Of a DNA stretch of 64,000 bases, positions 11,774 through 51,487 are shown in pieces. This DNA is from Bolinopsis microptera. Taxonomy: Eukaryota; Ctenophora; Tentaculata; Lobata; Bolinopsidae. Both the position numbers and the translations under genes were made by a program. The first letter of the stretch is position 1; each line of letters begins with the position of its first letter. The notes below the pieces were generated by a model. It had not been told where the DNA came from. It saw only the letters and a list, made by a program, of their open reading frames with translations, and ran no database searches. Where the stretch lies: the NCBI RefSeq assembly GCF_026151205.1, contig NC_087081.1:7373246-7437245 (forward strand). The letters run 5' to 3'.

Positions 11774-12865
11774 TTGATTTATATATTCTGTAGGTTTTAT
11801 CGTTACGTGATCTTGAAGCATTCTTCTTCTCTGGGTCTAAGATATATTGCAGTACAAATGAAAACTGTTAACTCAGGCACAGGTCAGGGTGACATTCAAG
11901 CACCTCCTGTCTTTAATTTCTGCCTAAACTTTTCTGCATTTCTGGCTGAGACCAACAAGATCATCAGTCAAGGCGCAGTGCTGCAGAAAGAGATGAAGAC
12001 GGTCGAGGAAAAGGTCATTCTGGACACCGATTATGCTGATGACATGGCTATTATGGACAACTCAGGGGAAGGCCTACAGGAATCAACTGATCTATTAGTT
12101 CATTACAGCTCCTACGCTGGGCTCAGAATAAATGCAAAGAAGACCCAATGCATGGCTGTAAGCAAGTGCGCCTCCCAGCGACCTTTCATCAAGGATGATT
12201 GTATTGAGCTGTCGGTTGAGGGTGAACCCGTCGAGCAGGTTAGCAACTTTGTCTACCTGGGTGCAACTATTAGTGGGGATGGGACAATCAACAGAGACCT
12301 GGATGTCCGTATCCAGAAGGCTAATGGCGCCTTTCATCAGCTCTGGAACATTTGGAATAGCAGAACTATAAAGACTCCAACCAAGATCAGGATCTATAGG
12401 GCTGCTGTCCTCACCATCTTGTTGTATGGAGCTGAAGTCTGGAACACCACCAAAAAGCAGATGAAACGTTTCGAGGTTTTCCATCAAACCTCCTTGAGAA
12501 GGATCCTTAGGATTAAATGGTTCTTTCATGTAACCAACGACGAAGTTCTTAGGAGGGCTGGCATCAAGTCAGTTGAGACTTTCATCAGTGCTGCCAGGCT
12601 ACGTTGGTATGGACATGTAGTTAGAATGCCAGACTCTAGACTACCGAGGTTTCTGTTGAACTGGAAGCCAAACTATGGAAAGAGGTCAAGGGGCAGACCC
12701 CGTAAGAACTGGAAGTCCTGCGTACTCGAAGATGCTGCTAAGTTTACAGGTGTTGAAAACATCGACAACGACACAACAGAAGCTTTGGCTACCAACCGAG
12801 TACAGTGGAGACATATGTTACGCCGCCAACGCGATGTGTGTGATGCAGGCCACTCCAACGACTAG
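11774..12865 (+). mobile_element. 5'-truncated non-LTR retrotransposon, RTE/craniofacial-2-like reverse transcriptase
   Basis: The reading frame begins inside the RT palm (SGTGQGDIQAPPVFNF), includes the catalytic box as DTDYADDMAI, then the thumb region (NFVYLGATISGDG, YGAEVWNTTKKQ). It ends with the conserved tail LRWYGHVVRMPDSRLPRF and GKRSRGRPRKNW. Endonuclease and the N-terminal RT motifs are absent, so this is a dead-on-arrival 5' truncation. The frame stays open to the stop at 12865, which suggests a fairly recent insertion. It lies in the putative last SDR intron. The family call is from motif style. Confidence 0.85.
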
Positions 12866-20369: not shown

Positions 20370-21443
20370 TCAGTAAACACTTGTAGAGCAAGCTGCATCT
20401 GGACACATGCAAGCAAAAGGACGTTCCCTCGACAGGAAGGAATCATCCCACCTCCCATTGATCCTGGAGAAAGCCACCGCTTGCTGCTCTCCGCTCTTCC
20501 TGACCCAATTATCCGGCTGTCTCTTGTAGTCCCACGGTGGGGACCACAGCAGAGGACTCCCGTCATGATGCTGCCACTCTTCTGTTCCAACACCGTTCAC
20601 ATCCATCACCTCGCGTGTCCCTATCCAGATCCAGTTGGTATCGTTCCATCTCTTCACGTCCACCTCCTCTCCCATCATCAGCTGAGCAGCCTTATCAAGG
20701 TCCTCATTCTCCTCCTTGCTGTTGACTATAGCCATGCTTAGACCAAAGGATTCGCACATACTCCGGGCTTGCTCCCACTTGACGTGTTTCTTTATAACGA
20801 TGTACTTGCCGCAGTAGTTGCACGCGTAAGGCATGGTTTTGTACTGCAAACTGTCGTCCCACTCACCAGACTTGCTCAGAGACACTTTGTCTTGGAAGAT
20901 TGGGGATTTTTTGTCTTTAGCTCCGTCCGGCATCTTCTTTTGCCAGTTCCACCACACTGGTTCCGAGCTGTCTATCCATTTCCACTCAGATGGCACGAAA
21001 AACTTGTCTCCTACTTTCTTCTTGTCCTGTTTGATGTCGTTGTTGATTGTCTTCTCCAGTCCGAGCCACACCCAGTTGTTTCTGTTATACTTCTTTCCCA
21101 CCCTCTTCACTCCGAACCCCAACTTCATCAACGTAACCAAGTCCTTGTTCTCCTCTTCTGTCTTTACAGTTGCCATGGAGCCCTTGACTCTGAGTGTCAT
21201 GGGTAGTGTGATGTTCTGACATGAGTCCTTGGCATCGTACCAGTCCTTCCAAGTTTTATAAAGTATGTACCTGCATGTAGCTACCACATCTTGGTTTTGC
21301 AGGGCTTTGGAGAACTTCTTGGCGTTGAGAGCAACAGGCTGGTTGAGGATGAAAGTTGCATCCTCTCCGTACACTCCTTCGTCTTGACTGTTCACAACTA
21401 CTGATACAGCTAGTATCAGAGTCACGGATAGAAGCAGCTTCAT
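20370..21443 (-). CDS. Secreted protein with two C-type lectin-like domains, single exon
   Basis: 357 aa from the ATG at 21441-21443; the frame is open further upstream, but the signal peptide starts here (MKLLLSVTLILAVSVVVNSQ). Residues 56-211 form CTLD1 (CRYILYKTWKDWYDAKDSC, WVWLG, GEWDDS, PYACNYC). Residues 212-348 form CTLD2 (YIVIKKHVKWEQARSMC, WIWIG, WQHHDGSP, RQPDNW, GRWDDS, PFACMC). CTLD2 keeps QPD (309-311) and a WND-like WDD, so calcium-dependent galactose-type sugar binding is possible; CTLD1 lacks a clear EPN or QPD. No TM helix: a secreted lectin, plausibly for recognition or matrix. The gene is intronless and lies inside the intron between two TSP1 exons on the same strand. Four CACGTG-bearing repeats lie about 390 bases upstream of the start. 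Confidence 0.92.
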   Translation of the reverse strand: MKLLLSVTLILAVSVVVNSQDEGVYGEDATFILNQPVALNAKKFSKALQNQDVVATCRYILYKTWKDWYDAKDSCQNITLPMTLRVKGSMATVKTEEENKDLVTLMKLGFGVKRVGKKYNRNNWVWLGLEKTINNDIKQDKKKVGDKFFVPSEWKWIDSSEPVWWNWQKKMPDGAKDKKSPIFQDKVSLSKSGEWDDSLQYKTMPYACNYCGKYIVIKKHVKWEQARSMCESFGLSMAIVNSKEENEDLDKAAQLMMGEEVDVKRWNDTNWIWIGTREVMDVNGVGTEEWQHHDGSPLLWSPPWDYKRQPDNWVRKSGEQQAVAFSRINGRWDDSFLSRERPFACMCPDAACSTSVY

Positions 21444-21830
21444 CCTGCATAAGTGTATAGCAATTATAATTGATTGATTAATTAATCTTATATAATTAAC
21501 TGTAATTAACTTATTTATTGTTATATATAGCAATTATAGTTGTTATAATTTACTTTTATGAAAGCAATCTAAAATATAATCCACTACAAAATGATCGATA
21601 TAAAACTGAAATTATCTGACTGAACTGTAAATAATATTATCAATATGCGCCACGCTCTGCCACACACCACATTAAACCACTTGCAGCTCAAAGCTACCAC
21701 TTGAACAACGACCCCGCAGTAGCAATTAAACTAAACTCATTCTGTTAAATTTTGTTTATCCACTAAAGTGGCTGGTGACCGTGGAGGGTACTAGCTTACT
21801 AGTAGTTTGGTGAGGAAGTCCTTTATAACC

Positions 21831-22690: not shown

Positions 22691-24612
22691 GTAACTTGCG
22701 CAACAAACTAATTTATCCTGAGTGGAACTAACCCACGACAGTCTACGGAGACTGATCGGAAGATGTAACTTGCGCAACAAACTAATTTATCCTGAGTGGA
22801 ACTAACCCACGACAGTCTACGGAGACTGATCGGAAGATGTAACTTGCGCAACAAACTAATTTATCCTGAGTGGAACTAACCCACGACAGTCTACGGAGAC
22901 TGATCGGAAGATGTAACTTGCGCAACAAACTAATTTATCCTGAGTGGAACTAACCCACGACAGTCTACGGAGACTGATCGGAAGATGTAACTTGCGCAAC
23001 AAACTAATTTATCCTGAGTGGAACTAACCCACGACAGTCTACGGAGACTGATCGGAAGATGTAACTTGCGCAACAAACTAATTTATCCTGAGTGGAACTA
23101 ACCCACGACAGTCTACGGAGACTGATCGGAAGATGTAACTTGCGCAACAAACTAATTTATCCTGAGTGGAACTAACCCACGACAGTCTACGGAGACTGAT
23201 CGGAAGATGTAACTTGCGCAACAAACTAATTTATCCTGAGTGGAACTAACCCACGACAGTCTACGGAGACTGATCGGAAGATGTAACTTGCGCAACAAAC
23301 TAATTTATCCTGAGTGGAACTAACCCACGACAGTCTACGGAGACTGATCGGAAGATGTAACTTGCGCAACAAACTAATTTATCCTGAGTGGAACTAACCC
23401 ACGACAGTCTACGGAGACTGATCGGAAGATGTAACTTGCGCAACAAACTAATTTATCCTGAGTGGAACTAACCCACGACAGTCTACGGAGACTGATCGGA
23501 AGATGTAACTTGCGCATCAGACTAATTTATCCTGAGTGGGGCTAACCCACGACAGTCTACGGAGACTGATCGGAAGATGTAACTTGCGCAACAGACTAAT
23601 TTATCCAGAGTGGAACTAACCCACGACAGTCTACGAAGACTGATCGGAAGATGTAACTTGCGCAACAAACTAATTTATCCTGAGTGGAACTAACCCACGA
23701 CAGTCTACGGAGACTGATCGGAAGATGTAACTTGCGCAACAAACTAATTTATCCTGAGTGGAACTAACCCACGACAGTCTACGGAGACTGATCGGAAGAT
23801 GTAACTTGCGCATCAGACTAATTTATCCTGAGTGGGGCTAACCCACGACAGTCTACGGAGACTGATCGGAAGATGTAACTTGCGCAACAGACTAATTTAT
23901 CCAGAGTGGAACTAACCCACGACAGTCTACGGAGACTGATCGGAAGATGTAACTTGCGCAACAAACTAATTTATCCTGAGTGGAACTAACCCACGACAGT
24001 CTACGGAGACTGATCGGAAGATGTAACTTGCGCAACAAACTAATTTATCCTGAGTGGAACTAACCCACGACAGTCTACGGAGACTGATCGGAAGATGTAA
24101 CTTGCGCATCAGACTAATTTATCCTGAGTGGGGCTAACCCACGACAGTCTACGGAGACTGATCGGAAGATGTAACTTGCGCAACAGACTAATTTATCCAG
24201 AGTGGAACTAACCCACGACAGTCTACGAAGACTGATCGGAAGATGTAACTTGCGCATCAGACTAATTTATCCTGAGTGGGGCTAACCCACGACAGTCTAC
24301 AGAGACTGATCGGAAGATGTAACTTGCGCAACAGACTAATTTATCCAGAGTGGAACTAACCCACGACAGTCTACGGAGACTGATCGGAAGATGTAACTTG
24401 CGCATCAGACTAATTTATCCTGAGTGGGGCTAACCCACGACAGTCTACGGAGACTGATCGGAAGATGTAACTTGCGCAACAGACTAATTTATCCAGAGTG
24501 GAACTAACCCACGACAGTCTACGGAGACTGATCGGAAGATGTAACTTGCGCAACAGACTTTATCCTGAGTGGGGCTAACCCACGACAGTCTACGGAGACT
24601 GATCGGAAGATG
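22691..24612 (+). repeat. 74-bp satellite with higher-order structure, 26 units
   Basis: Units begin GTAACTTGCGCA at 22691, 22765, 22839 and so on, every 74 bases to 24541. Three variants alternate: A (CAACAAAC, CCTGAGTGGAAC), B (CATCAGAC, CCTGAGTGGGGC) and C (CAACAGAC, CCAGAGTGGAAC). Order: eleven A, then B C A A, B C A A, B C, B C, B C, and a last unit shortened by 5 bases. Each unit holds a 6-bp hairpin CAGTCT-ACGG-AGACTG. It lies in the TSP1-ZP intron, about 100 bases from a TSP1 exon. No spacers, so not CRISPR. Confidence 0.97.
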
Positions 24613-24715
24613 TAGCCCCTTCTTGTGTACAAAATGGTAATTATTTAACAAATTTTTAGTCAATATGATAAATATATTCTCGTGATTAATATTTAATAAT
24701 CTTTTAATGTATTAC

Positions 24716-27308: not shown

Positions 27309-30300
27309 CTAGATGAATATGATAGCAAGTATACAGGATAATCCACACGGAGCTGCCAGCAAGCACAAGAACACCTGGAAATAATTATTTAATTAATTGT
27401 TAAATTAATAATTAGTCGATTATAAGGGTATATTTACGGTTAATGAGTAATACACCAATTATTTCAGGACATATTCTGGGCTTCACTCCTTTAAGATTAT
27501 TATCTGACCGATGCTGGACTTGGAAGCTCTAAGTTTTCACGAATTAATAATCTATAATGATTGTGATAACTCCATATTATGTTCACTGAATACTTACTGA
27601 TATTCGGAATTCTCAGGACCCAAAAACAATGTTCCAGCAATGTTTATTCATAAGATTACTCAGAACTAATATTTGTTGAAATTTAGAAGAAATCAGGTAC
27701 GTTAAAGCAACGGAAGTAAAATCAACGGCCGCATTTGAATTCCCAGTATAAACATATAAAGGCCAAAATTCGCGGAAACGATTGTACGGGATTCGGTTGT
27801 TAGTGTTGTAATGTAATGGCGAGACGTATTTTTTCTAGATTAAATGAGCTAGGAATGCTGCAGTGGGTTAAGCATGGGTACAAAAGGTGTAAACTCAGTC
27901 ACTGTAAAGTGGCCCCCTTTGTATAATGTACTCATCAGGATGCCTTGTTATATTTACTTCAAGATATAAATAAAGTAAATTAATTAAACACCCAATCAAT
28001 TTAAAAATCATTAAAAATCAATTAACTGCCTATAACTAGTTACCAGTTCATTGTAGATCTTTACACTGCCCACAGACAGGATGTAGAATAAAGCACACCC
28101 GAACATCTCGCCGCTCAGACACACACTGTACTTTAGCGAGATGTCACGTGCTCCGAACAGCTCTACTAACGCTGGAGCTACTCCTGCAGGGGAAGTGAGG
28201 GATCAGGTGATGTTCAAAATATATCATTGTGTTTGATAAAATTTAATATATTGGAGCTACTCCTGCAGGGGAAGTGAGGGGTCAGGTGGTGTTCAAAATA
28301 TATCCTTGTGTTGGATTAAATTTAATATGTTGGAGCTACTCCTGCAGGGGAAGAGAGGGGTCGGGTGATGTTCAAAATATTTCCTTGTAATTGATAAAAT
28401 TTAATATGTTGGAACTACTCCTGCAGGGGAAGTGAGGGGTCAGGTGTTCAAAATATTTCCTTGTGTTTGATAAAATTTAATATGTTGGAGCTACTCCTGC
28501 AGGGGAAGTGAGGGGTCAGGTGGTGTTCAAAATATTTCCTTGTGTTTGATAAAATTTAATATGTTGGAGCTACTCCTGCAGGGGAAGTGAGGGGTCAGGT
28601 GATGTTCAAAATATTTCCTTGTAATTGATAAAATGTAATATGTTGGAGCTACTCCTGCAGGGGAAGTGAGGGGTCAGGTGGTGTTCAAAATATTTCCTTG
28701 TGTTTGATACAATTTAATATGTTGGAGCTACTCCTGCAGGGGAAGTGAGGGGTCAGGTGGTGTTCAAAATATATCCTTGTGTTGGATTAAATTTAATATG
28801 TTGGAGCTACTCCTGCAGGGGAAGTGAGGGGTCAGGTGGTGTTAAAAATAATTTATTGTGTTTGATTGAATTTAATATGTTGGAGCTACTCTTGCAGGGG
28901 AAGTGAGAGGTCAGGTGGTGTTACAAATATATCCTTGTGTTTGATTATTATTTTGTGCCCATTTTGCAGCTGATTGCATCCAGTGTTGGATTTGTAGGAA
29001 AGCTATAGAAATGATTAATGAGGTATTTGAATTTCAGGTTCCATTATTTTTACGTTGAACATTGCAGTCTATATTTGAAGAATACTGCTGTCAGGATGCA
29101 AATTTCTGAGAGGACGAAAGCTTGTTGTATCACGTACCAGGAATATGCGTATATGTTTAAAAAGATGTGAATTCAATATTTATGTAATTCGCGGAAATAA
29201 GATTTCAAATCCTACATGATTTTATCATAAGTATATGACACTCTAGAGATTTCCCTAAAGAAGTTGAAATTCGAATGGCGAATAAAAATGATTACACTGA
29301 ATACTGGAAATTTGTGGTTTTCTCTGCAAAGTTATAATTTATCACGCATCAGAGTTAACGAATAACACCAAATCCTCTCATTATATAAGTATAACTCACC
29401 AGTAAAAATACCAGAGCTGAAGCTTAGACAGCACACATTGAACAAATAAAGCCACGGAAAGTGTCGAGACCAATATAATGTAATTGTAGAGGGAGTTATC
29501 ATCAGGAAAGCAAGGAAGAGCGACAACCTACAAATTATAGGTTAGCAAATTAGAAATTAGGAAATAGGGATTATGAATTAGAAAATTAGAAATTAGAAAG
29601 ATCTTAACTATTTAACACATGTGTCAGATCAAAACTGAAGTTTTAAAATAAAATTATTCCACCAAATTCAGTAATCATACAAAAAATAAAAGGAATGATT
29701 TAAAATGAACACCTAGCTTCTATCCTGTACTTCTTATATTATTACATATTATAATCACAATTATACTAATTCTCATTATACTAATTATAATCATAATTAT
29801 AATCATAATTATGCTAATTACCTAGCTCCAGCCCTGTCCATGAAGATACCCCAGAGGAGCCGCCCAAACGCATTTGCTATGGCTAATACTGCTCCCGTCA
29901 CATTCAGAAACTGGAATTGGTGCAGTGGGTGAAGATTTGAGTTTAGTGATTTGTTTTGAAATGTGGTAGTTATTACAACTCCTTTCAAAACATACTTATA
30001 TTACTTGTCCGCTTGAACATCGGACGGAAATTCAACAAATTCGGGCCTAAGCCAAACGTAATTAATCAGTGTTCATGGATCTGATGAGGAGTCAGGCCTG
30101 CAAGTGTTACATGTCCAATTTAAACTAATAAACGCTGCAAAACATGCAAAAACATACAAAAACATGCAAAAACATACAAAAACATGAAATACTCACGTGA
30201 TCGTCCAGGATGGTCTCTTTAGCTATTTCTTTATACAACTCAGAACTGGACAGTAGAGCTAAACTCATCGTCATGACAATTATATAAAGGAAATAAAACT

Positions 30301-33300
30301 TAAATGATCCCAACATCTGTCTAACCTGCGAGTGAGGAGGATTAGTACATAATTAGTGTACTTAGTGCAACTTTTAGGGCGAATTATCGAATTTAGGAAA
30401 AAAAGTGTCAGATATATTAATTATATGGTAATCTGATTGATTGATTGATTGAAAGAATTTTGAAATTCTTTAAAGAATAATATATTTTATAAGGTTAAAT
30501 TGTCCAAATAAATTGTCAAGTCTACAATAATTATTAATTATAAAACCGTTTAATTGACACTTACCGAGTAATCCTTCTCACTCTTAATTGCCTTATGATC
30601 GTCTTCACTATCATCAGTTAGCGGTATCATCTCACACACCTCCTCTGGGGTAGGAGACCTGGGGTTATAGGGTTATTAAGGGGGGCTATATTCTATAATT
30701 ATTAAGGTCTCACACACCTCCTCTGGGGTAGGCGACCTGGGGTTATAGGGTTATTAAGGGGGATTATATTCTATAATTATTAAGGTGCAGTGAGTTGCAT
30801 AATAGGGTTTGTTTATCAATTTTAATAGTAATTAAACATTTTAGATATGACCAATAATTATGTTCACAAGTCAATCAAATTGATAATTTATGTTATATAT
30901 GCCCATTTATTTGCCTAACAACAACACAGTTGTTAATCACACCCAATTTACTAATTAATTGGACTTAATTGATCAATTAATCAATTAATTAGCACCAACC
31001 TGACAAATAGAATAGAAGGTATAAGGAGGGTAGCGAACATCCCAGCGAATATTATCCACAAGTAGGGTACTTTCATGTACACATTTGAGCTCATGAAGAT
31101 CGTTACATTTCCTGAGGAGGGGACGGTGGTATTAACAAATAATAAATGATAAATTACAGTGGTATTAACAAATTATAAATGATAAATTACGATTTTTAAA
31201 CCGAGTAAATAGTGAAGGGGTATAAAGGCTGCCAGTAGTTTATAAATCTGCTGGTGACCAAAAATATTTTGTGAGGTTTCCCTTTTCCATCAATTTTACG
31301 CATTGAGTAAATTTATACAGAAATAAGGATGATAAATAAAAATAAAATGATAATCACCTAGTTCTGGATACAAAGGATCTGTGACTCTATCCATCCCAAT
31401 ATTTCCTGGGTTCACGTACAAAGTACAAATAAAACTGCCAATAAACCCGGACATTCCGATGAAGAACCCTATAATTCCGTTAGCAGCTCCAGATTTTGAG
31501 GGATTCCATTCTGTAGCCTGGAACACAACATGTTACAATTAGTTGCTACTGATTATGATACCTCATCACCTTAAGATAGCTACTGGATCCTTGAATAACA
31601 CGTACTCCGATTAAAATATAATTTAAGGACGCTAAATGCATAAGTATTACCAAATTCATTGAATATTAAATTTTGCTTTCCAACTGAAGTGATATTTAAA
31701 AAAACAGAATCTTAAATTAACAAGAGTTTCATGATGCACAGATGCAAACTTACTTTTCCTATAGTGAAGACTAAGACGTTCCCGCCAAAGAACCCTAAAG
31801 CGCACATATACAATGACAAGGACACGTAGGTTTTCCCTGGGAATAAAAGTATAATTAGTATAATTATAAGTATAATTAATATAATTATAGTGCATATAAT
31901 TAATTTACATAATAGAATGATTGTTGTACTTCCGAAAAAGCAGTCAAAATCAGTTAAAACCGACTTGAAAGCTTTGCTTTTATTATATAAATTACAGGGC
32001 AAACAAATTTTGAATCTTACAGTTATAGCTATTATCTTATTATGGAATTGTTGTTTATTTTGTTCATTAATATATTGTTTTATTATTTATAAAATATAGA
32101 TAGATAATAAAAATAGTTGCACTCACCGAACCAGTATATACTGGTCATGACTAATGTCAACCCTACGGAGAATATTGCGTATAATACTCTTTCATTACAG
32201 AATTTGGAGAGTAAACCTGAAACAGAGACATGTCAGCACTGCTAATAATTAGTTATTACAATCTGTTGATATTTATTATCTTCCTGGACCACTTTAAATA
32301 CTTAGAGCTCTAGAGCAATTAATACAACAGAACGCTCATTTTATTGTTATAATACTATAATAGTATTGAAAAAGTATGGTTTGCTTAGTGCAGCTCACCT
32401 ATCAAACTGCTATTCTATAAGGCTCACACAACCTTTAATTACAGTAGTTGTTGTCGACTACCTACCTTAAAAGCTTAAATATCTAGAGCGAAATACAAAA
32501 TATACATACACATCACAGACATATACGTAGTACGTACATATCACAGACACGAAAGTGTTGTTTGCTTACCATAGCATGTGACATTGCTTACCTATCAAGC
32601 TGCCACAGCACGTGACATTGCTTACCTATCAAGCTGCCACAGCACGTGACAAATATCAAAAACAAACTCGGGTGCAGGTTTAAATGCCGCATATCAAATC
32701 TCTCGCCCTGAAATCATTAGGTTATTACATTAACTATTGATAAAGAATTAATAGATATTGTTTTTTAAGCTTCATATTAACTAATGGCTTGAGACTAGCC
32801 TTAAAGAGACCAGACAATGTTTACTCAAAATATGAATATACAATACAATAACGATAAAATAATATCAATAATTAATGATGAAATTCAATATTAGGTATGG
32901 CAAGCCTCTTGTGACATCAAGGCTTTCTTCATGATTGGAATGTTTATGATATAACGAAAAATCATTATAACTGACTGCTTAACTAATTAATAATCGTAAA
33001 TATAAATCAACCACCATTAAATCGACTAAAAAAACTAAAATTGCTTGCGGACAATCGACTAAAAAATACTCACATTCATCCAAAGGTAGCTATAGATATA
33101 GGGGATCATAGCTCCGTAACTGAAGACTGGAACACTCATAGCACATGCACTCAGACATCCACTCATCAGCATCAAGTTGGACCTCCATCGCATTGTCGCA
33201 CTGAAATGGAATCGTTATAGAATCGTTACACGGATAGCTGCACTGGAATTAATAGGATTGTTAAGATCTATCAATCTTATACTTTATAATACTTTAAAGT

Positions 33301-35613
33301 TAAAGTCAGACGGTTTTAGTGGATTTTAATTGGGTGATCTGAAATTGAGATTGTCGCACTTAAATGGAACATGATTATGTACCAGATTGAAAAATACGAC
33401 TACGAACCTTAAGTTTAACAAATTTATTACAGCCATCAACAGTGTTTATAACTCAACAACGGTTAAAGAACGTAATTTAATATTTAATATATATATATCT
33501 AATTTATCTACATCTAAGAACGCAGTCATCCGATCACTGACCAGAAGAGCCCACAACATCTGCTCACCCCAACACCTTGACGACGAACTCCAGACAGTAC
33601 GACACGTATGCCTCCAGAACGGCTTCCCTCCTCACCGCATCACCACCATCATGGACGAAGTACAACGGAAATTCACCAACCCCTCTCGCCACCAATCCCT
33701 AGCCTCATTCAACCGACAGACCCGTGAACATGCCCTTAGTGTTTCTCTTCCTTTCCATCCCTCCCTATCCAAACCCATCTCCAAGATACTCGGACAATAC
33801 GACATCAAAGTCACCCACTCCTCTGCTACCTCCCTCCGCAACCTCCTCACCAAAACGAAGACCACACCCCCTACTCACCTCACTCCCAACACCATCTACG
33901 AAATTTCCTGCTCACAGTGCCCCTCCAAATACGCCGGACAGACCTACAGACCCTTGGTCCACCGCATGAAAGAACACGAACGATGTTACAGACTCAACAA
34001 CGCCATCGACGAATCCACAGACAGAATCAAATCAGCCCCTGCACATCATGCCCTGACCACCGGCCACACCATCTCCTGGAACAACATCGAAGTCCTCAAA
34101 TCCCTCACCTCACGCTCCCAACTTGACCTCACAGAACACGCAGCTATACAAATACGACAACCAGCTATGAACAGAACAGACCGCGCACCCAAATGTAGTT
34201 CCCTCTGGGACCCCATTCTTCCTAAAATTGCCAAATCCTTAAAGTCCAGACCATCTGGCATTTCCTTCTCAACCTCAACAGAAGACTAAATTTTTATTGA
34301 CATTGTACTGTAATTTCCACTTTCCCACCCACACCTCCCCCACCCTCCATCCCTGACACCACTCAATCACATATAAGCATTGTCCACCACATCACATTCA
34401 GCTGACGACGATTAACACATGTTTATTGAAAGCTTCTACAAGTTAAATCATCGTATCTCTTATATGTTTTTAACCCAACTCCACTCAGTTACATAATGGA
34501 CTATGGAGTTTTGTGGGAGGTGATGAATCATGCTATTTTTGTGCCCCTTAAAGTCGCTTCCGGAATCTAAAAACGAAGGTCTGTTTATCACCTTATTCAC
34601 TAATTGCTTGTGGGATAACAAAGTAACAATATAATGGTAAAACATAAAGTAAGAATTCAATGTGAAAATTATAAAGAAGATTCATTAATTTGAACGAGTA
34701 TGAAATCAACAACCCAGTAATAATGGTATTCAATGTACATGTCTACAAGTACCTAGTACATGTCTACAATTACATGTCTACAAGTACATGTCTACAAGTA
34801 CATGTCTACAATTACATGTCTACAATTACATGTCTACAATTACATGTCTACAATTACATGTCTACAAGTACATGTCTACAAGTACATGTCTACAAGTACA
34901 TGTCTACAAGTACATGTCTACAAGTACATGTCTACAAGTACATGTCTACAAGTACATGTCTACAAGTACATGTCTACAAGTACATGTCTACAAGTACATG
35001 TCTACAAGTACATGTCTACAAGTACATGTCTACAAGTACATGTCTACAATTACATGTCTACAAGTACATGTCTACAAGTACATGTCTACAATTACATGTC
35101 TACAAGTACATGTCTACAAGTACATGTCTACAAGTACATGTCTACAAGTACATGTCTACAAGTACATGTCTACAAGTACATGTCTACAAGTACATGTCTA
35201 CAATCACATGTCTACAAGTACATGTCTACAAGTACATGTCTACAAGTACATGTCTACAAGTACATGTCTACAAGTACATGTCTACAAGTACATGTCTACA
35301 AGTACATGTCTACAAGTACATGTCTACAAGTACATGTCTACAAGTACATGTCTACAATTACATGTCTACAATTACATGTCTACAAGTACATGTCTACAAG
35401 TACATGACTGCCACAAACATTTGAACATATAAAACAGATGCATTGCAATTTGAACAAATTAACAAATGCATTTATTTGATCGAAGAATACTCACCGTTTC
35501 AACAAATAAAGCTCAATATCATTCATATATTTATATGCTTTCCGTTTTTTCTTCGTAATAAGGTCTACGTCTTCATCGCAATTGCCATCACAGGAGCCGT
35601 ATTCAAACGCCAT
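27309..35613 (-). CDS. Major facilitator superfamily transporter (OFA/monocarboxylate-like), 13 exons, 472 aa
   Basis: Exons on the minus strand: 35613-35495, 33200-33074, 32707-32626, 32216-32127, 31836-31754, 31517-31358, 31111-31000, 30658-30565, 30325-30197, 29910-29822, 29527-29400, 28183-28044, 27374-27309. All junctions are GT-AG and every phase matches; the sum is 1,419 nt, a 472-aa protein ending TAG. A charged N-terminus (LITKKKRKAYKYMNDIELYL) precedes the first helix (NLMLMSGCLSACAMSVPVF). The two six-helix halves are joined by an acidic loop (IPLTDDSEDDHKAIKSEKD). Motif A is clear before helix 9 (FGRLLWGIFMDRAGAR). The NPGNIGMDRV stretch followed by VPYLW resembles oxalate/formate-antiporter-type MFS proteins. 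Transport of a small organic anion across a membrane is the likely role; substrate unknown. Intron 1 holds a Penelope-like ORF and a 14-bp satellite. Three splice junctions are tandemly duplicated (see repeats). Confidence 0.9.
28171..28950 (-). repeat. 79-bp tandem repeat carrying a splice acceptor and exon start
   Basis: About ten units spaced 79 bases (one 76). The unit includes, on the minus strand, CCCCTGCAG followed by GAGTAGCTCCA, that is the acceptor and first 11 bases of the transporter exon 28183-28044. Only the copy nearest the exon is followed by real coding sequence; in the others the frame meets TAA within a few codons. Confidence 0.95.
30629..30785 (-). repeat. 78-bp duplication of a splice acceptor and exon start
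   Basis: Two copies 78 bases apart. Each has ATAACCCCAG followed by GTC(T/G)CCTACCCCAGAGGAGG on the minus strand. The downstream acceptor (exon start 30658) keeps the transporter frame; the upstream copy (30736) would run into a stop within 20 codons. Confidence 0.93.
32571..32660 (-). repeat. 34-bp duplication of a splice donor and exon end
   Basis: The segment CAGCTTGATAG then GTAAGC occurs twice, with donors after 32626 and 32592; a partial third copy has a donor after 32570. Using the first keeps the frame; the second adds 34 nt and shifts it. Confidence 0.93.
33387..34289 (+). mobile_element. Penelope-like element fragment with GIY-YIG endonuclease
   Basis: About 300 codons open to TAA at 34289. 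The N-terminal part matches the region after the reverse transcriptase (VIRSLTRRAHNICSP, RHVCLQNGFPPHRI). The C-terminal part is a GIY-YIG-type endonuclease: TIYEISCSQCPSKYAGQTYR, then LVHRMKEHERC, HHALTTGHTI, LDLTEHAAIQI. The C..C before YAG(Q)T is the Penelope hallmark; the second motif is YAG instead of YIG. The RT itself is missing, so this is a 5'-truncated copy. It lies in transporter intron 1, antisense. CTGACGA...GAAA at about 34402-34430 resembles a hammerhead ribozyme core, known in Penelope terminal repeats, but helix pairing is weak. Confidence 0.85.
34735..35406. repeat. 14-bp satellite (TACATGTCTACAAG)n, ~48 units
   Basis: About 48 units of TACATGTCTACAAG with AAT variants and one AATC variant. 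The unit has no stop codon in any plus frame and its length is not a multiple of three, so all three frames encode the same 14-residue repeat (YMSTSTCLQVHVYK). It lies in transporter intron 1, so it is not a gene. Confidence 0.95.
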
Positions 35614-37638: not shown

Positions 37639-38862
37639 GGACGTCACTCCATACTCCTGAATAAGCTCGAGCACTATGGCATAAGAGGTCTCGCTCTAAA
37701 CTGGTTTAAATCATATCTTAGGAACAGAAACCAGTTTGTATCTATTGGATCCTCTGAATCCTCAGCCAACCCCATTATTTACGGTGTACCCCAAGGTTCA
37801 ATTTTGGGACCTCTCCTTTTTATTATCTACATAAACGATCTTCCTCAAATATCAGAAATAGCTAATTTCATCATGTACGCAGATGATACAAACATTTTCC
37901 TAACTGGAGAAAATATAAACGAGGTTTATGATAAGCTCAAAATTCTTAGCGATGTCTTAGTTAAATGGGTAGATAACAACGGTTTAGCTCTAAATCTTAA
38001 AAAAACGAATTATATGATCTTTTCTCGGCAAAGAAACCTCATTTATCGCGATGTAGTAATTAAAATTTCTGGTGTCACAATCGAAAGAAAAACAGAAGCC
38101 CGTTTCTTAGGAGTTATAATAGATAACAAACTGAACTGGTCGCAACATATTTCTGCCATGAAAATGAAAATGGCCAGATACATTGGAGTCATGTACAAAC
38201 TTAAAAAATATTTGCCTCTGGAAGCACGTTTACAAATATATCACAGCTTTGTTCAGTCTCACCTTAATTACTGCTCCCTCGTCTGGGGTTTTGCTGCCAA
38301 ATCCCATATAGAAACACTATTTGTAAAACAAAAAATGGGTCTTAGAGCAATACTACCATGTTTTGTTAATTACTGGTACAAAGATGGTACACCACCAGCA
38401 AGTACCAAGTCTGGTTTCTATGTACACAAAATATTGACAGTTCATAGTATCATCGTGAAGAACGCATTAGTTTTTATACATAAGCTGAAAAACTTCCCAA
38501 GTCTAGTGCCTCCCTCTATAAAGAAAACAATACCTAACAGTGCACCAATATTTAACGTCGCCGATCCGTATTCGAGTTTTACAACTTTATGGTCAGATGA
38601 ATACGGTAAACACCCTTACAATAATTCAGTATTCTACAAAGGTCCACTATTAGCAATAAACAGATATAGTGTCGCAGCAACTTCCTTACCAAGTCTCTTC
38701 AACCTTAACATCTACAAAAGGTGCATAAAAAACATGCTGATTGATCAACAAAACGAGGGCATCACAGACGAATGGCCTAACTTTATGTTACACAATATAA
38801 CGGGACTAAGGAAATCAGAGCGCAACATCAACCGTAATGCTAATAATAACTCTGTCCCATAA
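37639..38862 (+). mobile_element. 5'-truncated jockey/CR1-like non-LTR retrotransposon (reverse transcriptase)
   Basis: The coding stretch starts inside the RT domain (ILLNKLEHYGIRG), then NWFKSYLRNRNQFV, GVPQGSILGPLLFIIYINDL and the catalytic MYADDTNIF. The thumb (LNLKKTNYMIFS, FLGVIIDNKLNW) and a C-terminal domain follow, ending at the stop at 38862. A TGA at 37636-37638 bounds it upstream. The ORF has no internal stop, so the insertion is probably recent. No endonuclease or poly-A tail was identified. Confidence 0.88.
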
Positions 38863-46562: not shown

Positions 46563-48125
46563 TCCACTGTCATACATTTATATTAATTTATGTGTATCAA
46601 TTTATTTTGGTTATTGAGTTATAACAATTTCTATAATATGCTGTAAAGCAGTTATAAAGTAGCCATGCAATAAGCCAATTATTAAAATAATTGCTTCACT
46701 CTTGGCTGAATTGCTGGTCGATCTAATTTTAGTTCTAGCAATTAGTTTTGGCTGATGTTTCGGTGTCCCTAATTTTGTTTACACTCAGTCACTTGTCAAG
46801 GCATGTAAGGTCATTCGGCGAATTATTTTCGAAATAAAATGATGTATTTGTGTACCATTTTGAACGTTTATTGATTTTTTTAAAAATGCCCTCCTTTTGA
46901 GCATTTTTATTGAAAACTTTATAAAATTAAAACTGTTGCTTTTAATTAATTATTATATAATTATATAATTATTTAAGCACTCTGATTTTTGTTTATAAAC
47001 GGGTTTAGTTTCATTGTGATTTTTGTTATTTTGGCAGTTTTGTTTTTTCTCTAAACGATTTTCATACTGCACTAATTTTATAATTTCTTTAATTGATTCT
47101 GAAAGTGACGTTTAGTATTTGAAACACTGCTAATAAACAAGTATTTTTAAACTCATCCCCGTTGCAAGGCTTATTTTTTATTGAGTAATTTATTTGCAAA
47201 TGAGGAACGTTTTTTAAGAAATTTGTTTGAGATTGACGCTCGTTTGTTTAGGCAATTGTTAGATACAAATAAAGAATCTACAAAATTTTATTTATACCTG
47301 AACGGCATTTCAGATTATAAAATATACTTACAATAGACTGTAAATATTATTATGAGTATCATTAATGAATGCTCGTCGGACACTGTGTCATCACAGACAG
47401 TGAGACATTCATCATTGTAACTTTGTAACAATGTATTTTAACTATTCCCATGGCAACCGGAAACCAGAAAGCGCGGTATTTGTCGGGAATAATTGATTAA
47501 TTAACCCGTAAAGCATATATAGTATATATAGTGTGCCGCTGTAGTACTAGCACGGATATCAGGATTAATAATTGAACAGCTAAGCATTCTGATGCTCGAT
47601 TCGAGCGTCCTATAAATTACATTTTTCGTCAACGGTCCCCGCGGCAGTTGGAACCACCTTGAAACTTTGAAACGTCAGAAACGATGTATTTTTGAACACT
47701 GATTCCGATCCCTGCACATGACGTAGGGTTAAATGCTTGGTCATGTAGGGAAATAAATCAAATTTATCGTTTGTGTTAGGATTTAGCAAATACCTAAGAT
47801 AGGTATTTGTTAACTTGGTTAGGGTTAGAGTTGGAGTCAGTTCAGAGGATTAATTTTAACTTGTTCGTCAGAGCCATCTAGGGAACGTGATAAACTTAGT
47901 CACGTGATAGTTCAGTGCATAGTGATTTTATTCCTCCTGCTCGATTAGAAACTCCCTGACTATTTTTAGTTTTTATTCAATTTTGTTTGAGTTTTTATTC
48001 ATTCACTTATAATTGATATTCTAATCTTATAATTGATATTCTAATCGTTAGTAGTTTTGAGTTGAGCTATAATTATTGTGACTCCGTTTGGAATAGTTGT
48101 TATATCAGTGTACACCGTACGCTTC
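46563..48125. other. No gene seen
   Basis: AT-rich, without exon-like features. TTATAATTGATATTCTAATC is duplicated at 48009-48048. Confidence 0.5.
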
Positions 48126-49844
48126 AGCGCCTGCTAGGTACAGCACCTGCTAGGTACAGCACCTGCTAGGTACAGCACCTGCTAGGTACAGCACCTGCTA
48201 GGTACAGCACCTGCTAGGTACAGCACCTGCTAGGTACAGCACCTGCTAGGTACAGCACCTGCTAGGTACAGCACCTGCTAGGTACAGCACCTGCTAGGTA
48301 CAGCACCTGCTAGGTACAGCACCTGCTAGGTACAGCACCTGCTAGGTACAGCACCTGCTAGGTACAGCACCTGCTAGGTACAGCACCTGCTAGGTACAGC
48401 ACCTGCTAGGTACAGCACCTGCTAGGTACAGCACCTGCTAGGTACAGCACCTGCTAGGTACAGCACCTGCTAGGTACAGCACCTGCTAGGTACAGCACCT
48501 GCTAGGTACAGCACCTGCTAGGTACAGCACCTGCTAGGTACAGCACCTGCTAGGTACAGCACCTGCTAGGTACAGCACCTGCTAGGTACAGCACCTGCTA
48601 GGTACAGCACCTGCTAGGTACAGCACCTGCTAGGTACAGCACCTGCTAGGTACAGCACCTGCTAGGTACAGCACCTGCTAGGTACAGCACCTGCTAGGTA
48701 CAGCACCTGCTAGGTACAGCACCTGCTAGGTACAGCACCTGCTAGGTACAGCACCTGCTAGGTACAGCACCTGCTAGGTACAGCACCTGCTAGGTACAGC
48801 ACCTGCTAGGTACAGCACCTGCTAGGTACAGCACCTGCTAGGTACAGCACCTGCTAGGTACAGCACCTGCTAGGTACAGCACCTGCTAGGTACAGCACCT
48901 GCTAGGTACAGCACCTGCTAGGTACAGCACCTGCTAGGTACAGCACCTGCTAGGTACAGCACCTGCTAGGTACAGCACCTGCTAGGTACAGCACCTGCTA
49001 GGTACAGCACCTGCTAGGTACAGCACCTGCTAGGTACAGCACCTGCTAGGTACAGCACCTGCTAGGTACAGCACCTGCTAGGTACAGCACCTGCTAGGTA
49101 CAGCACCTGCTAGGTACAGCACCTGCTAGGTACAGCACCTGCTAGGTACAGCACCTGCTAGGTACAGCACCTGCTAGGTACAGCACCTGCTAGGTACAGC
49201 ACCTGCTAGGTACAGCACCTGCTAGGTACAGCACCTGCTAGGTACAGCACCTGCTAGGTACAGCACCTGCTAGGTACAGCACCTGCTAGGTACAGCACCT
49301 GCTAGGTACAGCACCTGCTAGGTACAGCACCTGCTAGGTACAGCACCTGCTAGGTACAGCACCTGCTAGGTACAGCACATGCTAGGTACAGCACCTGCTA
49401 GGTACAGCACCTGCTAGGCACAGCACCTGCTGGGTACAGCACCTGCTAGGTACAGCACCTGCTGGGTACAGCACCTGCTAGGTACAGCACCTGCTGGGTA
49501 CAGCACCTGCTAGGTACAGCACCTGCTGGGTACAGCACCTGCTGGGTACAGCACCTGCTAGGTACAGCACCTGCTAGGTACAGCACCTGCTAGGTACAGC
49601 ACCTGCTAGGTACAGCACCTGCTAGGTACAGCACCTGCTAGGTACAGCACCTGCTAGGTACAGCACCTGCTAGGTACAGCACATGCTAGGTACAGCACCT
49701 GCTAGGTACAGCACCTGCTAGGTACAGCACCTGCTAGGTACAGCACCTGCTAGGTACAGCACCTGCTAGGTACAGCACCTGCTAGGTACAGCACATGCTA
49801 GGTACAGCACCTGCTAGGTACAGCACCTGCTAGGTACAGCACCT
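48126..49844. repeat. 16-bp satellite (GCACCTGCTAGGTACA)n, ~107 units
   Basis: About 1.72 kb of GCACCTGCTAGGTACA, almost invariant, with CTGGG and CATG variants clustered after 49370. Each unit holds a CACCTG E-box (Snail/ZEB/E-protein type). Stops occur in every frame, so it is non-coding. It ends about 300 bases before the start codon of the downstream lectin gene. Confidence 0.97.
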
Positions 49845-50146
49845 AGTTTGATATTGATGTTAATTAACACTAGGAAACAGGACTGGCATAGTATAACAGT
49901 ATTATATAGCATGGTTTACAGTACAACCTGCAAGAAACAACCTATCGCGACCGTCCTCTTTTGTTAAGCTTCTTTTCTAATACGTCTTTCCTTTTAATAA
50001 TAACTATGATGGTCTACTTTATTAATTTACTTAGCAATTATTCTCCTAAACTTTTCATCAGTTCGATTATTTCAGCTCAAATCCTTGATTTGTTATGTTC
50101 AAACCTTTCATTGAAATCTATTAATATTATCACCCAGGAAAGTATA

Positions 50147-51487
50147 ATGCTCGCAAACCAGGCCTACTATATACTCCTTCTTCTCACTATCCCAGCTTCC
50201 GTTCTCTCAGCGAAGCAGGATCGCTTCTACACTTGCAAGTATGAGCTGACAAGAGACCAGGTCTCGAGGGAGGAAGCCACAGTGCGATGTGAGAAAAGAG
50301 GAGGTAAACTAGCGGTGATCCACTCTGCCGTTCAGAACGAGGAGGTGAGAGGGTTGCTAGAGTCTGCTCAGCTGCAGTCAGCTTGGATTGGACTGTTCCT
50401 AACTGATCATATCCAGCAGTGGGATGATGGGACCAAGTTAGGGTTTTCTAAACTGGAGCCTTTAGTTCAGGGTCCTGCAAGTGGGGCCAACGTTCTGGTT
50501 GACATCTCAGGAGGATGGAGTCTGATGAAGAGGAAACACAAAGCTGGGTATGTGTGCAGTGTAAGGAGACAGTATATCCTTTACCCCCAGCCATTAACCC
50601 GCAGCTCCAGCACTGCTGCCTGCTCTCACGACAACATGGTCCTCGCCAGAGTGGCTGGGTCTAATGATGCCAGGCAGGTCAGGAAGTTGATTAGAAGTGA
50701 GGGAGGATTGAAGAGACATCACTGGTTCTGGGTTGGAGGGGAGAATCCGACTGCTACAGGAGTTTGGCAATGGTCAGATGGCACCCCCGCGGTGGGTCTC
50801 AACGTGGATAAGACAGCTGTTGGAGAGTCAGGACCACTTTATGTGGCTATTAACAAACGGAGCGGCAGGTTGAGACCTTTACATGATTACTTCTTGAACC
50901 CGTTCATCTGCCAATGCCCAAATTTCCAGAAATCAAGAACTGAAGCCCAGCTTGACTACGGGGAGATAAACTCCGAAGGTGAGTATGTTCCCCTCTTCAA
51001 ATCTTTTGCAGAGACCCGACTACGTATAATAAACCCTGAACATGACCACGAGGACGAGGTGGAGAAGATGAGGAAGATGAGGTACTCCTACCACCGGACC
51101 CGGGTAACCCACGGAGCAGCACAGTCCTATTGCAGGTCCCAGGGAGGTGATCTAGGCTGCCCCAGATCCCAGCTCCAACAGACCCGGATCCTGGATACCA
51201 TCAGATCCAACTCCTGGTTAGGGCTAGTAGACGTGGACGAGGAGGGTGTTTGGAGGTGTGTAGGGGACGAGTCTCTACCTACCTACACTAACTGGTACCA
51301 GGGGTTCGGGAGAGGTGCTGTACCGGAGCCGGACAACATGACGGATAGGAGGAAACCGGGAGCGGGGTATGTTCAGATACTACATGATCCTGACAGGAGC
51401 TGGAGACATGGCAGGTGGATTGATAGAGGGGCTCCGCAGTATGAGTACGCTATCAGGAGCCCTTTTGTGTGTGAGTATCCCAGGTGA
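50147..51487 (+). CDS. Secreted protein with three C-type lectin-like domains, single exon
   Basis: 446 aa from the ATG at 50147, chosen because a signal peptide starts there (ILLLLTIPASVLSA); the frame is open further upstream but reads no protein-like sequence and lacks a good start. CTLD1 is residues 26-139 (FYTCKYELTRDQVSREEA, AWIGL, QQWDDG), CTLD2 142-258 (HWFWVGG, VWQWSDGTP, FICQCP), a charged linker 259-312, CTLD3 313-446 (THGAAQSYCRSQGGDLGC, SWLGL, NWYQGF, EPDN, FVCEYPR). CTLD3 has EPD near the mannose-type EPN position; CTLD1 and CTLD2 lack a clear sugar-binding triplet, and CTLD1 lacks the WND-like end. No TM helix. Like the other lectin gene it is intronless among multi-exon genes. 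The E-box satellite ends just upstream. Confidence 0.92.
   Translation: MLANQAYYILLLLTIPASVLSAKQDRFYTCKYELTRDQVSREEATVRCEKRGGKLAVIHSAVQNEEVRGLLESAQLQSAWIGLFLTDHIQQWDDGTKLGFSKLEPLVQGPASGANVLVDISGGWSLMKRKHKAGYVCSVRRQYILYPQPLTRSSSTAACSHDNMVLARVAGSNDARQVRKLIRSEGGLKRHHWFWVGGENPTATGVWQWSDGTPAVGLNVDKTAVGESGPLYVAINKRSGRLRPLHDYFLNPFICQCPNFQKSRTEAQLDYGEINSEGEYVPLFKSFAETRLRIINPEHDHEDEVEKMRKMRYSYHRTRVTHGAAQSYCRSQGGDLGCPRSQLQQTRILDTIRSNSWLGLVDVDEEGVWRCVGDESLPTYTNWYQGFGRGAVPEPDNMTDRRKPGAGYVQILHDPDRSWRHGRWIDRGAPQYEYAIRSPFVCEYPR

Follow-up and report, generated by a model that had tools for sequence, protein, structure and literature searches.

Tandem arrays across three splice junctions of a transporter gene in the ctenophore Bolinopsis microptera resemble the mirage minisatellites of amphioxus

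The transporter gene and its three arrays

A stretch of 64,000 nt from the ctenophore Bolinopsis microptera (NCBI RefSeq assembly GCF_026151205.1, contig NC_087081.1, positions 7,373,246 to 7,437,245 of the forward strand), hereafter the window, contains a gene for an MFS transporter in which three splice junctions are spanned by tandem repeats. The gene occupies 27309..33193 of the window on the minus strand, and its 12 coding exons, assembled over GT-AG introns at all borders, join into an uninterrupted open reading frame (ORF) of 430 amino acids (aa). Residues 260-429 of the predicted protein match Pfam MFS_1 (E=7.4e-12), and no match to the protein is found among PDB chains at E<=0.1.

Analysis of the gene with Tandem Repeats Finder confirms the three duplicated junctions that had been described in an earlier note on this DNA. 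The largest array, a 79-bp unit in 9.8 copies with 92% matches (28173..28945, minus strand, as are all arrays of the gene), spans the acceptor of exon 11, whose authentic start is 28183. A 78-bp unit in 2.0 copies (96% matches, 30630..30786) spans the acceptor of exon 7, with the authentic site at 30658 and a decoy at 30736, and a 34-bp unit in 2.4 copies (95% matches, 32569..32651) spans the donor of exon 2, where 32626 is the last authentic exon base. The exonic bases lying under these arrays number 11 for exon 11, 29 for exon 7 and 26 for exon 2. Exon 11 has ten acceptors in all, from 28891 to 28183, nine of which are decoys (28262, 28341, 28420, 28496, 28575, 28654, 28733, 28812 and 28891), and the unit copies vary by substitutions and one indel. 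The presence of consensus splice bases in the units, as claimed in the earlier note, holds for eight of the nine decoys of exon 11, which keep the CAG, and fails for the outermost one, which reads CAA.

At each of the three junctions, the frame is kept by the exon-proximal copy alone, and the ORF stays intact only with these splice sites, in agreement with the earlier note. Its statement that the decoys lead to early stops is likewise correct. Every exon-11 decoy shortens the protein, to 368 aa in eight cases and to 404 aa in one; the exon-7 decoy adds 78 nt in frame, yet meets a stop at 235 aa; and the decoy donors of exon 2 inside the 34-bp array give 85 aa (32592) and 79 aa (32570). These stops are copies of one sequence and hence not independent observations.

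Additional elements are present close to the junctions. Apart from its array, the exon-2 donor has a further, degenerate copy (32393..32410, minus strand, 18 nt), which is 89% like both array copies and contains a remote decoy donor at 32399 that gives 79 aa. A 20-nt acceptor-like copy at 33350..33369 (minus strand) is 95% like 33192-33211, immediately upstream of the start codon, with the CAG changed to AAG. These two copies are traces of two more junction duplications. A 33-bp unit in two copies (31123..31188, minus strand) stops 11 bp before the acceptor of exon 6 and is thus near a junction without spanning it. The idea that the 79-bp unit belongs to a dispersed repeat family was rejected, as a genome search with two units, by a method that skips very common words, returned this array only.

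Adjoining the transporter gene upstream, a 300-aa ORF (33387-34289, plus strand) has no Pfam match and looks like the endonuclease-bearing end of a Penelope-like element. Elsewhere in the window, RVT_1 reverse-transcriptase fragments are found at 11774-12865 and 37804-38862 (plus strand), C-type lectin domain proteins at 20370-21533 (minus strand) and 49961-51487 (plus strand), and large minisatellites at 22691-24614 (74 bp in 26 copies), 34755-35406 (14 bp in 47 copies) and 48125-49844 (16 bp in 107 copies).

Arrays in paralogs and control genes

The genome of B. microptera is given as 265 Mb on 13 chromosomes in PMC11797021, and Iso-Seq is described for this species in PMC10232365. The assembly searched comprises 264.65 Mb in 232 contigs, and every place returned lies on C1 to C13. 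For an ionotropic glutamate receptor encoded in this assembly, the top PDB matches are three chains named ML032222a (E down to 9e-121), ahead of the next receptor at 3.5e-71. ML032222a is a protein of Mnemiopsis leidyi, and the genome is accordingly placed close to Mnemiopsis. A search of the genome with the protein gives 34 matches, some of which fall on the exons of the gene itself and others of which are more distant single-exon matches. Of the close paralogs, one lies on C6 and lacks introns, and those on C10 have several exons. Four paralogs were compared, namely PA, PB, PC (two loci) and the intronless gene. The homologous exon-2 donor of PB and PC lies within an array of an 80-bp unit that crosses the junction, in 6.8 and 3.8 copies, respectively. 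The exon-7 acceptor of PC is spanned by a 67-bp array, and the exon-6 acceptor of PB by a 123-bp unit that was read by eye, exon 6 being absent from the script's exon list. No spanning array is found at any of the 12 called junctions of PA. The intronless paralog (G000:C6:12805500-12809499) is 37-39% identical to the transporter and is possibly a retrocopy. In PB and PC, the coding sequence also ends in a duplicated 41-bp segment (L002 1583-1660, L003 2331-2441).

Unrelated genes were represented by 46 control loci from four conserved families, recognised by their TCP1, myosin, kinesin or dynein domains, which cover 214,996 bases and 348 called junctions, the latter derived from Pfam exon hits and splice consensus rather than from annotation. 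The loci had been selected before repeats were looked for, on the basis of numerous exon hits within a short length of DNA, and are a non-random sample of the genome. Genes with a single exon, regions with few hits and second copies (e.g. C13:5067999-5070627) were left out, as were several long loci. An array is counted as spanning when it covers at least 3 bases on either side of the junction. Nine such arrays are present in seven of the loci (9/348 junctions, 2.6%), none of them in the TCP1 loci, and two loci, L027 and L032, have two spanned junctions each. The call at the L013 acceptor is weak, its exons being non-contiguous in the model, and the array at the L027 acceptor includes only 3 exonic bases.

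The most extended arrays occur in the kinesin locus L027 (G000:C12:14427850-14435800), where 52 copies of a 33-bp unit lie across a donor and take up the greater part of the intron, and about 112 copies of a 26-bp unit lead up to the acceptor of another intron. Each of these two introns is built largely from copies of its own splice site, and AG|GT, as in a recursive splice point, is present in one of the two units. In a dynein heavy-chain locus (L043, G000:C2:21034450-21037750), a 65-bp unit in 12 copies extends over a donor and 53 exonic bases.

The GT or AG is retained in all 72 decoys followed in eight control arrays, by a walk that ends at any copy with fewer than 14 of 24 positions alike. 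Pooled over 15 arrays, mismatches affect 8 of 2556 positions in the splice cores and 162 of 6465 in the other columns, a contrast that is overstated because the copies share variants; the rate is lower in the core in each of the 15 arrays. Together, the retained GT/AG and the lower core rate leave no sign that the decoys are disabled. When the core window was ranked against all windows of equal width, its variability percentile averages 0.32 over the nine informative arrays, where the null value is 0.5 and the standard error 0.096; the L027 donor core is the exception at 0.68, above the median. This ranking gives a weak hint that the splice cores may be less variable than their surroundings.

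Placement of the arrays relative to junctions

Random placement was modeled by putting each repeat unit at random in its gene, with positions wholly inside exons excluded. The gene spans hold 111 arrays with a period of at least 10, of which 92 were kept and 19 were dropped as lying within called "exons"; the latter probably lie in introns missed by the caller. The loci with arrays used in this test account for 264 of the 348 junctions. For units of at least 20 bp, 9 spanning arrays are observed and 7.2 are expected (P=0.23), and for units of at least 30 bp, the values are 7 and 4.7 (P=0.12). Fewer spanning arrays than expected are observed among all units of at least 10 bp (9 vs 10.4) and among units of 10-29 bp (2 vs 5.7). 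Placing whole arrays at random, for units of at least 20 bp, gives an expectation of 16.2, which is above the 9 observed.

The coverage of the control introns by arrays with units of at least 20 bp leads to a similar picture, with no peak at the junctions. In the 10 intronic bases nearest to donors, coverage is 4.5%, compared with 3.9-8.8% farther in; in the 10 nearest to acceptors, it is 2.2%, compared with 4.5-13.2% farther in (ranges from every second 10-bp bin). In the transporter gene alone, which was picked for its arrays, 3 spanning arrays are observed and 1.2 are expected (P=0.09). The proposals of the earlier note that the three hits are non-random and that a repeat-generating process is targeted to splice sites are thus not borne out by these tests. 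The repeats themselves are plainly real, and their position is mostly not beyond chance.

Known counterparts and the origin of the arrays

Similar structures are the "mirage" minisatellites of amphioxus, which are reported for Adh3, the globins BflGb6 and BflGb9, troponin C and, in imperfect form, PGBD5; in PMC3087553 and PMC3902484, regular splicing is reportedly undisturbed, and the Adh mirages are attributed to Canestro 2002, as cited in PMC3087553. Three features of the mirages were compared. In all three transporter arrays, the unit takes in sequence from both the intronic and the exonic side of a single junction; both 5' and 3' exon borders are affected, with two acceptors and one donor in the transporter gene and both kinds in the controls; and the AG or GT is kept in many copies, as seen for the exon-11 decoys and the control decoys that were followed. 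Because these three features are shared, the arrays are assigned to the mirages, here in a ctenophore. They differ from those of amphioxus in their host, in reaching about 112 copies (L027), in affecting three junctions of one gene and in having a measured frequency, from the sample of 348 junctions. For amphioxus, both regular splicing and length polymorphism are reported; in the present genome, the PB and PC paralogs differ in their copy number of one unit. Among the matches listed from the open-licence PMC literature, none reports mirages in ctenophores.

Human genes provide further parallels. In CBS, a 31-bp variable number tandem repeat spans exon 13 and intron 13. The 844ins68 allele of the same gene duplicates an intron-exon junction, and the more distal site is strongly preferred according to PMC2630376, where the sites are called "donors" in the text and 3' splice sites in a cited title. 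This duplication differs from the present arrays in being polymorphic and in having 2 copies in a single human gene. In human segmental duplications, variable internal tandem repeats with units of 30 bp on average alter exon-intron boundaries; there they are reported to give rise to alternative transcripts and to new introns in paralogs of recent origin (PMC2812944).

The arrays are most probably ordinary minisatellites of the mirage type that took in a junction and would be tolerated since splicing is expected to use the exon-proximal copy. This reading is favoured because the same structures occur in paralogs and in unrelated genes and because the counts match random placement of the units. 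The use of the exon-proximal copy, meaning the acceptor that comes last or the donor that comes first, is suggested by the reading frame and by the CBS and amphioxus precedents. Tandem duplications are present at many intronic places in the ctenophore genome, as seen in the sample, and some starting units straddle an exon-intron border, at a rate that fits random non-exonic placement. A duplication that leaves a complete splice site beside an uninterrupted exon may survive selection, and the array could then grow via slippage or unequal exchange. Splicing would pick the exon-proximal copy, the one by which the short, normal exon is defined; the decoys would be mostly silent, and any use of them in the transporter gene would lead to truncated products.

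Several results weigh against this reading. The three spanning arrays of the transporter gene exceed expectation marginally when only units of at least 30 bp are placed (3 vs 1.0, P=0.049). Compared with 9/348 control junctions in Fisher tests, the gene has 3/22 spanned junctions (P=0.028), and the gene with its paralogs has 6/66 (P=0.020, from hand-entered counts), while the paralog junctions alone have 3/44 (P=0.14); the totals of 66 and 44 take every gene to have 22 junctions, and the PB exon-6 junction read by eye is counted in. Spanning arrays are purer (P=0.008) and have longer units (P=0.018) than other arrays, and among young arrays (at least 90% matches, units of at least 20 bp) 9 are spanning and 4.6 are expected (P=0.008), in one of six subsets tried, chosen post hoc. 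The junction excess anticipated in the earlier note is not supported by the 46-locus sample as a whole and appears in this young subset, where it possibly reflects a mild junction bias or the loss or purging of old spanning arrays. Additionally, homogenisation, which in mirages takes the form of concerted evolution within the cluster that leaves out the boundary copies, is not clearly visible in the 79-bp array, where the similarity of the authentic exon-11 copy is intermediate (0.915 for bases within the unit, compared with 0.892 for the outermost copy and 0.856-0.948 for interior copies); the value falls to 0.84 if exon bases beyond the unit are counted, and the boundary then seems to be excluded. 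The authentic and interior values are 0.994 and 0.991 for L043, 0.939 and 0.962 for the L027 donor, and 0.964 and 0.973 for the L027 acceptor.

The excess of young spanning arrays, the 6/66 comparison and the clustering of spanned junctions, with two each in L027 and L032 and three in the transporter gene, would also suit a process that generates repeats specifically at splice junctions, for instance by way of transcription or R-loops. Such a process is improbable, given the near-random count for units of at least 20 bp, the deficit for units of 10-29 bp and the lack of a coverage peak in the first intronic bases. As the main cause, a junction-targeted origin was rejected on the placement tests of the sample and of the single gene and on the coverage profile. 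Also unlikely is a bolder view, in which tandem splice-site arrays belong permanently to the introns of ctenophores, their copies stay functional under selection on every splice core, and the spliceosome passes through tens of identical sites, stepwise or by choice; the low variability ranking of the cores is a hint in this direction.

Poison splicing, as raised in the earlier note, would mean that the decoys are deliberately used to yield truncated, decay-prone messages that set the output of the transporter. Every decoy examined in the gene truncates the protein, and the CAG is retained in eight of the nine exon-11 decoys, which speaks for this account. However, truncation is the outcome expected by chance, because among the 72 control decoys only 1 is both in frame and free of stops; comparable arrays also occur in kinesin and dynein genes, and the PA paralog lacks a spanning array at its called junctions, which renders poison splicing quite improbable. 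An assembly artefact, in which the assembler made or inflated the repeats, is very unlikely, although exact copy numbers may be wrong: tandem arrays are difficult to assemble, but the 80-bp unit recurs at the same junction in two paralogs with different copy numbers, the 79-bp copies differ from one another, and the units sit at the splice sites of an intact ORF.

If the exon-proximal copy is used, the arrays would provide many natural settings in which near-identical splice sites, distinguished chiefly by their position, compete with one another, at 2.6% of the sampled junctions and with 2 to about 112 copies. The choice between exon definition and a first-come mode of splice-site selection would then become directly testable. 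Ctenophores are possibly the earliest animal branch. The arrays extend mirages from chordates to this phylum, which bears on how introns grow and slide.
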